Shown: positions 8,212 to 23,666 of the stretch, piece after piece
Position numbering within the stretch: the stretch's first letter is position 1
Layout of the letters: the number at the start of each line of letters is the position of its first letter
Assembly (NCBI GenBank): GCA_016866775.1
Contig: VGLJ01000001.1
Span: 1-64,000, forward strand
Source of the DNA: Candidatus Rokuibacteriota bacterium
GTDB lineage: Bacteria > Methylomirabilota > Methylomirabilia > Rokubacteriales > CSP1-6
DNA length: 64,000 bases
Direction: 5' to 3'
Position numbers and translations under genes: made by a program
Notes under the pieces: model-generated
Databases searched by the model: none
What the model was told of the DNA's origin: nothing
Seen by the model: the letters and a program-made list of their open reading frames with translations, nothing else

Positions 8212-9429
8212 ATGGCACACAAGGGAATGACGTTCGGCATCTTCCTCGCGCCCTTCCACCGGATCGGTGAGAACCCCACGCTCGCGATGAGCCGGGACAT
8301 GGAGCTCATCGAGTGGATGGACTTCCTCGGCTACGACGAGGTGTGGGTCGGCGAGCACCACTCGGCAGGCTGGGAGCTCATCGCGTCGCCCGAAGTCTTC
8401 ATCGCGGCGGTCGCCGAGCGCACGAAGCACATCCGCCTCGGCTCCGGGGTGACGAGCCTACCGTATCACCATCCGTTCCTCGTGGCGCAGCGCTTCGTGC
8501 AGCTCGACCACATGACGCGCGGCCGGACGATGCTCGGCTGCGGCCCGGGCGCGCTCGTGTCCGACGCGTACATGATGGGCATCGAGCCCGTGCAGACGCG
8601 CCCGCGGATGGACGAGGCGCTCGACGCGATCATGGAGCTCCTCAAGTGCGAGGAGCCCGTGACGATGAAGACCGACTGGTTCGAGCTCCGCCAGGCGCGG
8701 CTCCACCTGGCGCCCTACACCGATCCGCACTTCGAGATCGCGGTGGCCAGCGTCATGACGCCGTCGGGCGTCGTGGCCGCCGGCCGGCACGGGCTCGGCG
8801 TGCTGTCGCTGGGCGCCGGCATTCCCGGCGGTCCCGACGCGCTGGCCGGTCAGTGGAAGATCGCGGAGGAGACCGCCGCGAAACACGGCAAGACCATGGA
8901 CCGCAAGAAGTGGAAGCTCGTCGTCAACGTGCACGTGGCCGAGGACGACGAGGAAGCGCTCCGGCAGGTGCGGAAGGGCGAGCGTCACGAGACCATCACG
9001 TACTTCGAGGAGACGCTGAGCCGCCCGCCCGGTCGCTCGGACGATCCGCTCAGCGACGGCGTCAGGATGGGCACGACGCTCGTCGGCTCACCGGACCTCG
9101 TGATCCGCGGCATCAAGAAGCTGTGGGATCTGAGCGACGGCGGATTCGGCGGCGTGCTCTTCCGCGCGCACAACTGGGCGACGCGGGAGCAGACGCTGAA
9201 GAGCTACGAGCTGTTCGCGCGCTACGTGATGCCGGTCTTCCAGGGCTCGGCCGACGGGCCGCGCAGCTCGAACGAGTGGGCGCGCAGCCACCGCAAGACG
9301 ATCTTCAGCCCCAACGTCGAGGCGATCCAGCGCGCGTACACGGAGCGGGGCCGCGAGGCGCCGAAGGACTTCCGCCAGCGCACGTCGGGCGCGCGCGACG
9401 CGGACGCGATCCCGGGGACGAGTCCTTAG
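8212..9429 (+). CDS. LLM class flavin-dependent oxidoreductase (limonene monooxygenase-like)
   Basis: ORF 405 aa: MTFGIFLAPFHRIGENPTLAMSRDMELIEWMDFLGYDEVWVGEHHSAGWE. Confidence 0.93.
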   Translation: MAHKGMTFGIFLAPFHRIGENPTLAMSRDMELIEWMDFLGYDEVWVGEHHSAGWELIASPEVFIAAVAERTKHIRLGSGVTSLPYHHPFLVAQRFVQLDHMTRGRTMLGCGPGALVSDAYMMGIEPVQTRPRMDEALDAIMELLKCEEPVTMKTDWFELRQARLHLAPYTDPHFEIAVASVMTPSGVVAAGRHGLGVLSLGAGIPGGPDALAGQWKIAEETAAKHGKTMDRKKWKLVVNVHVAEDDEEALRQVRKGERHETITYFEETLSRPPGRSDDPLSDGVRMGTTLVGSPDLVIRGIKKLWDLSDGGFGGVLFRAHNWATREQTLKSYELFARYVMPVFQGSADGPRSSNEWARSHRKTIFSPNVEAIQRAYTERGREAPKDFRQRTSGARDADAIPGTSP

Positions 9430-9430
9430 T

Positions 9431-9498
9431 TTGGGGGGCGCCGGGCGCCCCCCAAAGCCCCCCAACGCTCCGGGCGCGGAGTGGATCCGCGCCCTCCG
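9431..9498. repeat. Two-hairpin G/C-tract element, copy B
   Basis: TTGGGGGGCGCC-G-GGCGCCCCCCAA (perfect 12-bp arms), A, GCCCCCC, then CTCC-GGGCGCGGA-GTGGA-TCCGCGCCC-TCCG (perfect 9-bp arms). Confidence 0.85.
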
Positions 9499-9501
9499 CG
9501 A

Positions 9502-10365
9502 ATGCCTGAAATGATCGCGACACCGGCCGGTCGCTTCACCGCCGACGTCGCGGGCCCGCCCGACGGCGCGCTCGTCGTACTTCTTCACGGGTTCCCGCAG
9601 AGCCGGCACACGTGGCGCGAGCAAGTCCCGGCGCTCGGCGCCGCCCGATATCGCGCGGTCGCGCCCGATCAGCGCGGCTATTCGCCCGGCGTCCGACCCG
9701 ATCCCGGCACGCTCGACGCGTACGGGATCGATCGACTCGTGGGCGATGTGCTCGACATTGCCGACGCGGTCGGTGGCACGGAGGCGCGCTTTCATCTCGT
9801 CGGTCACGACTGGGGAGGCCAGGTCGCGTGGTGCACGGCCGCGCGCCACCCGGAGCGCGTCCGATCTCTCGCCGTGCTTTCGCGTCCGCATCCGGCGGCG
9901 TTCCGGCGCGCCTTCAAGGACGACATCGACAACCAGCGACATCGCTCGCGTCACCACCAGGCGTTCCACGACCCGCGCACGGCGGCGTTCTTGCTCAACA
10001 ACGATGCCGAACGGTTGCGTCGCGTGCTCGCTGACGGGCGCGTGCCGCCGCCCTCGATCGCGGAGTACCTCTCGGTGCTCGGCACCGCCGACGCGCTCGA
10101 AGCCGCCCTCGCGTGGTACCGCGCGGCCGGCGTGCTCGCGAACATGGAAGTCGGCCCGGTCGACGTGCCGACGCTGTACCTCTGGGGCGACGACGACTAC
10201 TCGGTCGGCCGCAGCGCCGCCGAATGGACCGCGCAGTACGTGGGTGCGCCGTACCGCTTCGTGCCGATCGCCGGCCGCGGCCACTTCCTCACCGACGAAG
10301 TTCCCGACGTCGTCACGCGACTGCTGCTCGAGCACCTCGCCACGGCCCGGGTCACAACTCCTTGA
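9502..10365 (+). CDS. Alpha/beta hydrolase (epoxide hydrolase-like)
   Basis: LLHGFPQSRHTWREQ, DQRGYSPG, LVGHDWGGQVAW, GHFLTDEVPD. Confidence 0.93.
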   Translation: MPEMIATPAGRFTADVAGPPDGALVVLLHGFPQSRHTWREQVPALGAARYRAVAPDQRGYSPGVRPDPGTLDAYGIDRLVGDVLDIADAVGGTEARFHLVGHDWGGQVAWCTAARHPERVRSLAVLSRPHPAAFRRAFKDDIDNQRHRSRHHQAFHDPRTAAFLLNNDAERLRRVLADGRVPPPSIAEYLSVLGTADALEAALAWYRAAGVLANMEVGPVDVPTLYLWGDDDYSVGRSAAEWTAQYVGAPYRFVPIAGRGHFLTDEVPDVVTRLLLEHLATARVTTP

Positions 10366-20352: not shown

Positions 20353-21567
20353 ATGAGCACGAGGAGATTCAGGGAGCAGCGCTGGCTCATCGACAACACG
20401 ATCCGCGCGGTCGGGATGGACTGGGACCAGCCGCGCTCGATCTACCTGTCCTCGCCGTGCGGGCCGGAAGCCAACGCCGACTTCGCGCTGATCCGGCAGC
20501 GGATCACGAAGCTCGCCGACGCCTCGCCGGTGTTCGAAGCCGTCGCGCGGCGGCGGGAAGGCAAGGCGCAGGCAGCCGAGAAGGACGGCGCGACGACGAC
20601 CGCGCGCGAGAACTACTTCATCGCCGCGGTGTGCTGGGGCGCCGCGCAGTGGCCCATCGACGAGAACGACGACCAGAATCGCTTCTACAACCCGCGCAAG
20701 CGCGAGTGCTACGCGAAGTACGCGTCGCTCGCCGACCACCGCGTGGAGCCGGCGTGGATTCCGCTGCCGACGGGTCAGTCGCTGCCGGCGTGGTTCCACG
20801 TGCCGCCGGGCTATACGGGCGGACGCATTCCGGCCGTGATCTCGCTGCCGGGCATGGACAGCTTCAAGGAGATCGGCGTCGCGATGTACGGCGACCGCTG
20901 GCTCTCGCGCGGCATCGCCGTGCTCGCGCTCGACGGCCCGGGTCAGTACGAGAGCCCGGTGCTCGACATCTACTTCAGCATGGCGGCCTGGACGCAGACG
21001 GCCACGGCCGCCGTGAACTGGCTGGCGGCGCGTCCTGAAGTCGATCCCGCGAGGATCGGGCTCAGCGGCAACAGCTTCGGCTCGTTCTTCGGCACGATCG
21101 CCGCCGCGCACGAGCCGCGCATCCGCGCGCTGTCCGTCTCCGCCGTCTGTCACGAGCCCGGCTTCCACACGATCTTCGAAGAGGCGTCGCCGACCTTCAA
21201 GGTGCGCTTCATGTACATGTCTGGGATCACCGACGAAGCCGAGTTCGACGCGCTTCGAAAGGCCATGACGTGGGAGGGTCACGCGGAACGGATCACCGCG
21301 CCGTACCTCTGCGTGGCCGGCGAGTTCCACGAGCTCTCGCCGCTCGTCCACACCGAGGCGCTGATGCGGGCGCTGCCCGGGCCGAAGCGGCTCGTCGTCT
21401 ATCAGGACTCGCGACACTCCGTCGGCAACGTGCCGGCCGCAAACCTCGGTCCCTTCCCGCCGATCCTCATGGCCGACTGGATGGCCGCCACGCTGAACGG
21501 GATACCGTTCCCGAGCGAGCGATGGCTCGTCGAGAGCACCGGCCGCATCGCCAAGACGCCGCTGTGA
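20353..21567 (+). CDS. Alpha/beta hydrolase (FrsA/DUF1100-like)
   Basis: ORF 404 aa: PAVISLPGMDSFKE, GIAVLALDGPGQYES, ARIGLSGNSFGSFFG. Confidence 0.88.
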   Translation: MSTRRFREQRWLIDNTIRAVGMDWDQPRSIYLSSPCGPEANADFALIRQRITKLADASPVFEAVARRREGKAQAAEKDGATTTARENYFIAAVCWGAAQWPIDENDDQNRFYNPRKRECYAKYASLADHRVEPAWIPLPTGQSLPAWFHVPPGYTGGRIPAVISLPGMDSFKEIGVAMYGDRWLSRGIAVLALDGPGQYESPVLDIYFSMAAWTQTATAAVNWLAARPEVDPARIGLSGNSFGSFFGTIAAAHEPRIRALSVSAVCHEPGFHTIFEEASPTFKVRFMYMSGITDEAEFDALRKAMTWEGHAERITAPYLCVAGEFHELSPLVHTEALMRALPGPKRLVVYQDSRHSVGNVPAANLGPFPPILMADWMAATLNGIPFPSERWLVESTGRIAKTPL

Positions 21568-22577
21568 CCCCGCGGTTCGGCCTCAGCCTGCCGAATCGCG
21601 GCGTGCTCTTCGGCGCGACGAGCGTCGACGAGCTGCTCGCGCTTTCCGAGCAGGCGGAAGCGTCCGGCGCGTTCGAGTCGATCTGGGCCGGCGACAGTCT
21701 GTTCGCGAAGCCGCGGCTCGAGTCGCTGGTGCTGCTCGGGGCGATCGCCGCGCGCACGCGCCGCGTGCGTCTCGGCACCTGCTGCCTCTCGACGTTTCCC
21801 CTGCGCGACCCGATCTTCCTCGCCGCGCAATGGGCCGCGCTCGATCAGGTCTCGCACGGCCGCATGGTCCTCGGCGCCTGCATCGGCGGCAGCCAGCCGC
21901 GCGAGAAGGCCGAGGCGGAGTTCGCGCCGTTCCGCGTGAAGCTGAGCGAGCGCGCGCCCCGCCTCGAAGAGGGCATGACGATCCTTCGCCGGCTCTGGAG
22001 CGAGGACCACGTCACGCACGAGGGCCGCTTCTGGCAGTTCCGCGATCTCACGCTCGAGCCGAAGCCCGTCCAGCAGCCGTGCCCGATCTGGATCGCGACG
22101 AACCCGAAGCCCGGGCTCGCCGCGCCGCACATTGCCGACCGCGCCGTTCGGAGAGTCGGCCTGATGGGCGACGGGTGGATGACGGACAACACCCCCGTCG
22201 CGACGTTCCGGCTGCGGTGGGATCTCATCCGCCAGGTCGCGCGCGAGGCCGGCCGCGCGACCGAGGGCATGGAGTCCGCCCTTCACCTGATGGTGAACCT
22301 CAACGACGATCGGCAGGCGGCGTTCGAAGAGTCGGTGAAGTTCCTCCACACGTACTACAGCCCCGCGATGACCCGCGAGTACATCGAGAGCTGGCTCGCG
22401 TACGGACCGCCGTCCGCGGTGATCGAGAAGATCCGGGCGTACGTCGAGGCCGGGTGCACGACGCCGATCCTGCGCTTCGCGTCGTGGGACCAGAAAGGGC
22501 AGATGGCGCGCGCGATCGACATGTTGGGGGGTGCGAGACGCACCCCCCAAGCCCCCCTCGCCTCCGAGCGGACGTGA
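21564..22577 (+). CDS. LLM class flavin-dependent oxidoreductase
   Basis: GTG start overlapping previous TGA (GTGA). TPRFGLSLPNRGVLFG...HGRMVLGACIGGSQPREKAEAEF. C-terminal tail lies inside repeat copy C. Confidence 0.92.
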   Translation: MTPRFGLSLPNRGVLFGATSVDELLALSEQAEASGAFESIWAGDSLFAKPRLESLVLLGAIAARTRRVRLGTCCLSTFPLRDPIFLAAQWAALDQVSHGRMVLGACIGGSQPREKAEAEFAPFRVKLSERAPRLEEGMTILRRLWSEDHVTHEGRFWQFRDLTLEPKPVQQPCPIWIATNPKPGLAAPHIADRAVRRVGLMGDGWMTDNTPVATFRLRWDLIRQVAREAGRATEGMESALHLMVNLNDDRQAAFEESVKFLHTYYSPAMTREYIESWLAYGPPSAVIEKIRAYVEAGCTTPILRFASWDQKGQMARAIDMLGGARRTPQAPLASERT

Positions 22578-22590
22578 AGTCCGCTCTCCG
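22524..22590. repeat. Two-hairpin G/C-tract element, copy C
   Basis: TTGGGGGGTGCG-AGA-CGCACCCCCCAA (perfect 12-bp arms), GCCCCCC, then CTCC-GAGCGGAC-GTGAA-GTCCGCTC-TCCG (perfect 8-bp arms). Confidence 0.85.
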
Positions 22591-22601
22591 GCGGCTGCCC
22601 C

Positions 22602-23666
22602 TTAACGGAAGTTCGGCGCCACGTGCTCGCCGAAGCGGCGCAGCGAGGCGACGACCTTCTCGTGCGCCAGGCCGCCCCAGCTCGCCTGGCACATCACGTG
22701 GCCGAGGCCGGCGTCACGAAGGGCCGCGATCTGCTCGGCGACACGCTTGGGCGTCCCGTACAGCGCGCCGGTCTCGAGCACGAAGCGCACGCCGTCCGGA
22801 TGCGAGACCGCTGGATCCATCCACGGGTTGATCGCCGCCGTGTTCACGCGGAAGTCGGCGGGGTTGTACGCCTCGCGCACGTGATGCATGTGCTGCCGGT
22901 ACGCCAGCGTCGCGGTCTGGACGTCGTCCTCGGCCTGCGCCTCGCTCTCGGCGACGTAGAGGAAGCGCCACACGGACGCCTCGCCGAGCAGACGCCGCTG
23001 CGTCGCCGCGTCGTGGCCCCCGGCCTCGAGGCCCTCGCGATAGCGCGCGAGCCGCTCCGGGATCCGCGCGTTCGGCACGCGCGACATCATCACGGGGATG
23101 CCGTCGCGCCCGCATTCCACGAGTGACTCGACGGCGATCACGCTGCGCCAGATCGGCGGATGCGGGCGCTGGACGGGTCGCGGGCGAATCGAAGGCAATC
23201 GCACCGAGAAGAACTTGCCGTCGTGGACGAACGGCTCCTCGGTCCAGGCGCGCGTGAGCACCTCGACCGCTTCTTCCATCCGCTCGCGGCTGTCGTCGCT
23301 CCGCAGGCCGAAGCCGACGTACTCGTACTCGTTGTAGCTCGACCCGCGCCCGATGCCGACGTCGAGGCGCCCGCGACTGAGGTTGTCCAGCACGGCAAGC
23401 TGGATCGCGAGGCGCACCGGATGGTGGAGCGCCATCTGGATGACGGCAAAGCCGATCCGTGCCCGCGACGTGCGCGCCGCCAGCGCGCCGGCGAACGGGA
23501 TCGGGTCGGCGTACGCGCACTCGCCGGTGAAGTTGTGCTCGGTGAGCCAGAGGTAGTCGAAGCCCATCGCCTCGGCCAGCACGCCCTGCTCGAGCTGCTG
23601 GTGGACGCAGGCGAGATCGTCTTCGGCCGACGGCGAGAGCGAGAGCGTCATCCATCCGAACTTCAT
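22602..23666 (-). CDS. LLM class flavin-dependent oxidoreductase
   Basis: ORF 354 aa: MKFGWMTLSLSPS, MGFDYLWLTEHNFTGECAYADPIPFAGALAARTSRARIGFAVIQMALHHPVRLAIQLAVLDNLSRGRLDVGIGRGSS. Confidence 0.94.
   Translation of the reverse strand: MKFGWMTLSLSPSAEDDLACVHQQLEQGVLAEAMGFDYLWLTEHNFTGECAYADPIPFAGALAARTSRARIGFAVIQMALHHPVRLAIQLAVLDNLSRGRLDVGIGRGSSYNEYEYVGFGLRSDDSRERMEEAVEVLTRAWTEEPFVHDGKFFSVRLPSIRPRPVQRPHPPIWRSVIAVESLVECGRDGIPVMMSRVPNARIPERLARYREGLEAGGHDAATQRRLLGEASVWRFLYVAESEAQAEDDVQTATLAYRQHMHHVREAYNPADFRVNTAAINPWMDPAVSHPDGVRFVLETGALYGTPKRVAEQIAALRDAGLGHVMCQASWGGLAHEKVVASLRRFGEHVAPNFR

Follow-up and report, generated by a model that had tools for sequence, protein, structure and literature searches.

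The window analysed here, a stretch of 64,000 nucleotides from G000, the genome of an uncultured soil bacterium of Candidatus Rokuibacteriota, contains two copies, B and C, of a short two-hairpin element associated with genes for luciferase-like monooxygenases (LLM). Copy B occupies positions 9431 to 9506 of the forward strand (79.6 bits, E 1.2e-12 in the window with covariance model R1; boundaries taken from 59 aligned copies). It starts one nucleotide past the TAG stop codon (9427-9429) of a forward-strand LLM gene (8227-9429; PF00296, E 1e-43), where an earlier note on this DNA had correctly seen two perfect hairpins, and it ends 4 nucleotides before the start of a forward-strand alpha/beta-hydrolase gene (9511-10365; PF00561). 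The codon model behind all gene calls had the window itself as its training sequence.

Copy B can be divided into four parts, all on the forward strand: hairpin 1 (9431-9455), in which TTGGGGGGCGC pairs with GCGCCCCCCAA across a 3-nucleotide loop, as found in pair counts and in RNA and DNA folds of this strand; a linker (9456-9465) that carries a second C-run (AGCCCCCCAA); hairpin 2 (9466-9500), which folds into an outer CGC/GCG helix, a TCC/TCC internal loop, a variable stem of 9 bp (GGGCGCGGA/TCCGCGCCC) and the loop GTGGA; and a conserved 3' tail (9501-9506, consensus AGTGCC), at the end of which similarity between copies stops and information content falls to background. The C-run in the linker repeats the 3' arm of hairpin 1 in direct orientation and is a possible alternative partner of the G-run, a pairing that is used in the centroid structure of the forward-strand RNA. 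The earlier note had located the two elements properly and had ended them too soon, at 9498 and 22590; with the conserved tail they extend to 9506 and 22599. Likewise, the sequences CTCC..TCCG that it took for flanks are indeed conserved, but they belong to the outer CGC/GCG helix around the symmetric TCC/TCC internal loop.

Copy C (22524-22599, forward strand; R1, 85.4 bits, E 1.1e-13) has the architecture of copy B with both stems altered. The inner stem of its hairpin 2 (22559-22593, from sequence and fold) is GAGCGGAC/GTCCGCTC with the loop GTGAA, and the outer helix is CGCC/GGCG as against CGC/GCG in copy B, a gain of one whole matched base pair. This agrees with the compensatory stem changes around a conserved loop and flanks that had been described for copy C, and adds the extra outer pair to them. 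A forward-strand LLM gene (21564-22577; PF00296) runs into copy C, such that its TGA stop codon (22575-22577) is the TGA of the GTGAA loop. On the other side lies a convergent LLM gene on the reverse strand (22602-23666; PF00296), whose ortholog in G007 is 93.5% identical and also has an element 2 nucleotides from its 3' end. The pattern TTGGGGGG..CCCCCCAA occurs twice in the window and in none of 100 dinucleotide shuffles; with the covariance model there is no third copy in the window, the rest of which scores at noise level. The three PF00296 genes lie inside 15 kb and all adjoin copies B and C. The PF00296 family itself is strongly expanded, since a search with one LLM gene of the window returns at least 33-34 matches in some genomes of the family.

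A covariance model built from 25 copies finds at least 144 copies of the repeat (E<=1e-3) in the 5.13-Mb genome, so that it is not limited to the two copies that would have spoken against the earlier reading; reversed-pattern controls gave 0 matches. The first model represented a subset of copies, because alignment A1 misaligned hairpin 1 of the long-loop type. The unit is 76-80 bp long (76 bases in copy B) and has a fixed order: a G6/C6 hairpin, the second C-run, and a hairpin with a variable stem and a short conserved loop, GTGAA in this genome, enclosed by the outer CGC/GCG helix. In 59 full copies from this genome the element is sharply bounded and its flanks drop to background; the consensus ends are [A/T]TGGGGGG and GCGAGTGCC, with a conserved tail ..GCGAATGCC, and the types of hairpin 1 and hairpin 2 are freely combined. 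Three loci of G000 (L006, L012 and L013) have a clear hairpin 1 and C-run without a normal hairpin 2, so that hairpin 1 may be older than the rest or may spread on its own. At another locus (L028, 1380-1660, on contig C42 of G000) a copy occupies the beginning of a gene, and a frame from an upstream ATG crosses the element into a signal peptide. The ortholog of this gene in L252 lacks the element, which may therefore be a source of new N-terminal coding sequence in L028.

Base pairing in the element is kept through many paired changes. In alignment A2, from this genome, 9 of 22 pairs are altered on both sides, including six of the nine pairs of the hairpin 2 inner stem where two-sided changes occur, and the covariation score is 0.173 as against 0.051 for shuffled alignments and 0.016-0.035 for slid structures. 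Across genera (alignment A4), 14 of 21 pairs are altered on both sides, with a score of 0.268 against 0.098; here the covariation across related genomes that the earlier note had anticipated is found. Neither score was reached by any of 500 shuffles, counts that are not probabilities because related copies are not independent. On either strand, whether folded as RNA or as DNA, copies B and C also far surpass shuffled sequence (z -2.9 to -5.9). Covariation alone, however, fits pairing at the RNA or the DNA level, and selection or template-switch repair alike. G-T pairs are rare in the stems of this genome (of 531 stem pairs in 59 copies, 3 are G-T, 4 are A-C and 5 are mismatched otherwise), which gives no support for selection at the RNA level and fits DNA-level pairing or template-switch correction. 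The mismatches of the relatives (10 G-T against 53 A-C) are left uninterpreted, because inherited mismatches are counted many times. The paired changes may accordingly reflect quasi-palindrome correction by template switching, or gene conversion between copies, and not structural selection. In favour of such an origin, alignment A2 has 35 cells changed on both sides and only two half-way states, changed on one side with pairing kept, and the free combination of hairpin types points the same way; the conserved loop, internal loop, outer helix and tail would be left unexplained. We regard this origin as a serious possibility, though not a probable one, and it is compatible with a mobile-element explanation of the repeat.

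The element lies between genes, near their 3' ends. In three samples it was present in 16/35, 13/32 and 36/97 convergent gaps, as against 1/28, 4/23 and 7/95 divergent gaps (Fisher p 1e-4, 0.08 and 6e-7, respectively). Between tandem genes, 76 copies run along the gene direction and 60 against it, a bias that is not significant (p 0.2). Placement at 3' ends, in convergent and unidirectional gaps, has been described for REPs (PMC3733652).

Outside this genome, a family-level covariance model has matches in 46 of the 57 genomes of the family, many with at least 49 matches (copy counts in relatives are lower bounds), and in only one, weakly, of 38 genomes from elsewhere in the phylum. Related genera keep the architecture with different stems. 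The hairpin 1 pattern of the relatives was found in 113 stretches of named genomes, 112 of them titled Candidatus Rokubacteria or Rokuibacteriota. The remaining one, a contig of 4.7 kb (L275, QHVJ01000397.1), is assigned to Acidobacteria and comes from soil metagenomes similar to those that yielded the AR MAGs; this contig with a Rokubacteria repeat is probably misbinned. The exact pattern of hairpin 2 of this genome had no match in 84,980 named genomes, and neither pattern matched viral contigs. Two further observations concern the relatives. A 3.8-kb contig of G045 (C95, locus L117) has a single copy of the G000 type (94 bits), the other copies in G045 being of another form, and is either a misbinned contig or a recent transfer. 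Loci in G043 (L128) and G070 (L131) contain G-run hairpins, related but distinct, with other stem-loops after them, which may represent sister families of the repeat. In the open-access literature, a search found no earlier account of a repeat of this kind from Rokubacteria.

Comparison of orthologous sites reveals presence and absence of the kind expected of a dispersed mobile element. The site of copy B is empty after all 21 orthologous LLM genes of other genomes (74-86% identical). The junction between gcvPB (assigned from Pfam) and a putative lplA (named by the sequence of the frame that follows) is without the element in several genera (G041, G006, G014, G001 and others), has it in plus orientation in G009 and minus in G045, and holds a degenerate copy in G000; in G017 two reverse copies lie 3' of gcvPB. 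At one operon junction the two genes abut in L281 and are separated in L218 by 443 bp with five direct copies. Such head-to-tail arrays, in which the period is roughly 90-100 bp, comprise three to five elements (L218, 6366-6810; L223, 3931-4287; L217, 6892-7176). The same gap can hold the element in opposite orientations in different genomes (L218/L250, L214/L238, L215/L222), and in a comparison of L039 with L127, in which both flanks are orthologous, only G000 has the element. The orthologous gene pairs comprise 10 with the same orientation, six with opposite orientation and 19 with an element in one genome only, which are counts and not rates because pairs were sampled for an element on at least one side; two of the six, involving L266, were excluded as overlap artefacts of the pattern. 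Judged from these sites, the element moves or turns over.

This turnover bears on the possibility that the element is a fixed, selected and immobile bidirectional terminator or 3'-end processing signal, whose hairpins serve both converging transcripts. The strong preference for convergent over divergent gaps would suit such a signal, as would the stability of the RNA on both strands (-48 to -52 kcal/mol) and the G+C-rich hairpin that the element-free gap of L127 has of its own. However, no T-tract follows either hairpin on either strand, which argues against classical intrinsic termination and agrees with the earlier view that this is not a plain terminator; the intrinsic terminator class was rejected on this ground. 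A fixed signal would also be expected neither to be absent at the 21 other orthologs of the gene of copy B and at many gcvPB junctions, nor to differ in orientation between genomes and form tandem arrays. We therefore consider a fixed terminator improbable.

Other known classes fit the element in part. As with REPs sensu stricto, it is a short intergenic palindrome of high copy number (144 copies) placed at 3' ends, but the GTAG or CGTC end tag is absent from the consensus of 59 copies. A cognate Y1 transposase (TnpA-REP) flanked by the repeat, typical of RAYT-mobilised REPs and REPINs, was not found; the two hairpins are unrelated in sequence, and multiple copies are mostly head-to-tail rather than the inverted REPs of a REPIN. 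The earlier note had proposed a search for a RAYT transposase, and no Y1 transposase/RAYT (PF01797) is present in the G000 assembly, so that a Y1 (RAYT-type) mobiliser encoded in this genome is not supported. All genomes here are metagenome assemblies, in which the absence of a gene from a single genome is weak evidence. Across the family, only one of the 23 genomes in which 20 or more copies were scored has Y1, as against 10 of the 34 below that number (Fisher p 0.04); conversely, 1 of 11 genomes with Y1 is rich in the element, as against 22 of 46 without (p 0.04). Its absence from 22 of 23 element-rich genomes is stronger evidence than its absence from one assembly, and the 10 Y1 loci of the family that were examined carry no element. 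A canonical REP/RAYT system was rejected for want of a tag and of a Y1 in this genome. A canonical REP or REPIN whose RAYT is missing from the assembly, which is 97.5% and not 100% complete, would account for copy number, 3'-end placement and the structured single units and tandem groups known from REPs (PMC3733652), but is very unlikely given the missing tags and the rarity of Y1 where the element abounds. The ends are not inverted repeats and no convincing target-site duplication was found (k=2-12), and a classical MITE of a DDE transposase was thus rejected. A known Rfam RNA was also rejected, as the window has no match to a curated model. A strand-specific structured RNA (riboswitch, sRNA or leader) that evolved by compensatory change at the RNA level would explain the covariation and the conserved loop, but is scarcely credible in view of the missing Rfam match, the insignificant orientation bias, the avoidance of divergent, promoter-side gaps and the lack of an excess of G-U intermediates.

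A high copy number, sharply defined ends, arrays in tandem, orthologous sites that are occupied, empty or occupied in inverted orientation, 3'-end placement and maintained pairing together point to a dispersed element. The repeat is, in our view, likely to be a palindromic DNA element, dispersed and non-autonomous, that belongs to the REP/BIME type, is specific to a single family of Candidatus Rokubacteria and acts as follows. Its hairpins, when single-stranded, would be recognised by a copying machinery, at the lagging strand or during repair. Insertions would survive mainly at 3' ends, where they may be least harmful, and most others would be removed by selection. Transcribed copies would then form 3'-end hairpins in either orientation that may block exonucleases or aid termination. 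Of the two alternatives in the earlier note, an RNA structure or a REP-like repeat, the latter is favoured by the 144 copies, the covariation and the site differences, while a strand-specific RNA is disfavoured by the lack of a significant orientation bias and the rare G-U pairs. Against a dispersed element, neither a mobilising enzyme nor a target-site duplication was found, mobility being read from site comparisons. Deletion could also have caused part of the presence/absence pattern, and the 10 gene pairs that keep the same orientation fit long residence or selection equally. It is conceivable, though we think it unlikely, that a mobilising enzyme from some family other than Y1/RAYT recognises the two unlike hairpins in single-stranded DNA.

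The usual explanation of a REP population is a resident RAYT. A comparable population with turnover at orthologous sites and maintained hairpins, present in most genomes of this Rokubacteria family and mostly without a detectable Y1, thus offers a natural test of other means of spreading, and a mobiliser outside the Y1/RAYT family, if true, would be a second, independent bacterial route to REP-like populations. In addition, many Rokubacteria genomes gain a repeat that had no annotation, together with a covariance model ready for annotating it. The non-coding share of Rokubacteria genomes is reported to be large, 8-17% (PMC5712423).

Several known systems resemble the Rokubacteria element in part. 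Intrinsic (Rho-independent) terminators are also G+C-rich hairpins just past stop codons; here, in contrast, there are two hairpins and no T-tract, in a dispersed family with a conserved loop and tail. In enterobacterial BIMEs, palindromic units are combined as mosaics and arranged in alternating arrays at 3' ends. Mosaics and arrays at 3' ends are shared with them, whereas the Rokubacteria arrays are direct and unrelated in sequence. The GTAG REPs and REPINs with a RAYT are likewise hairpin-forming, non-autonomous, high in copy number and placed at 3' ends (PMC3116915, PMC8049555), but the element lacks the GTAG tag and an inverted REP pair, and a RAYT is missing from this genome and from nearly all relatives rich in the element. 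For CGTC-tagged REPs, too, no dedicated transposase is known, and they likewise lie at 3' ends, in convergent and unidirectional gaps, with several stem types per family (PMC3733652). They are, however, mostly head-head dimers (PMC3733652), whereas the Rokubacteria element is head-to-tail and without the CGTC tag. Untagged REP-like families, noted in M. tuberculosis, D. radiodurans, Bordetella, Brucella and Cyanobacteria, are also short, dispersed, mostly intergenic palindromic DNA with no conserved terminal tag (PMC3733652). In contrast to these, the element described here is bipartite, its two hairpins being unlike, its C-run duplicated and its TCC/TCC internal loop enclosed by an outer helix, and is confined to one Rokubacteria family.
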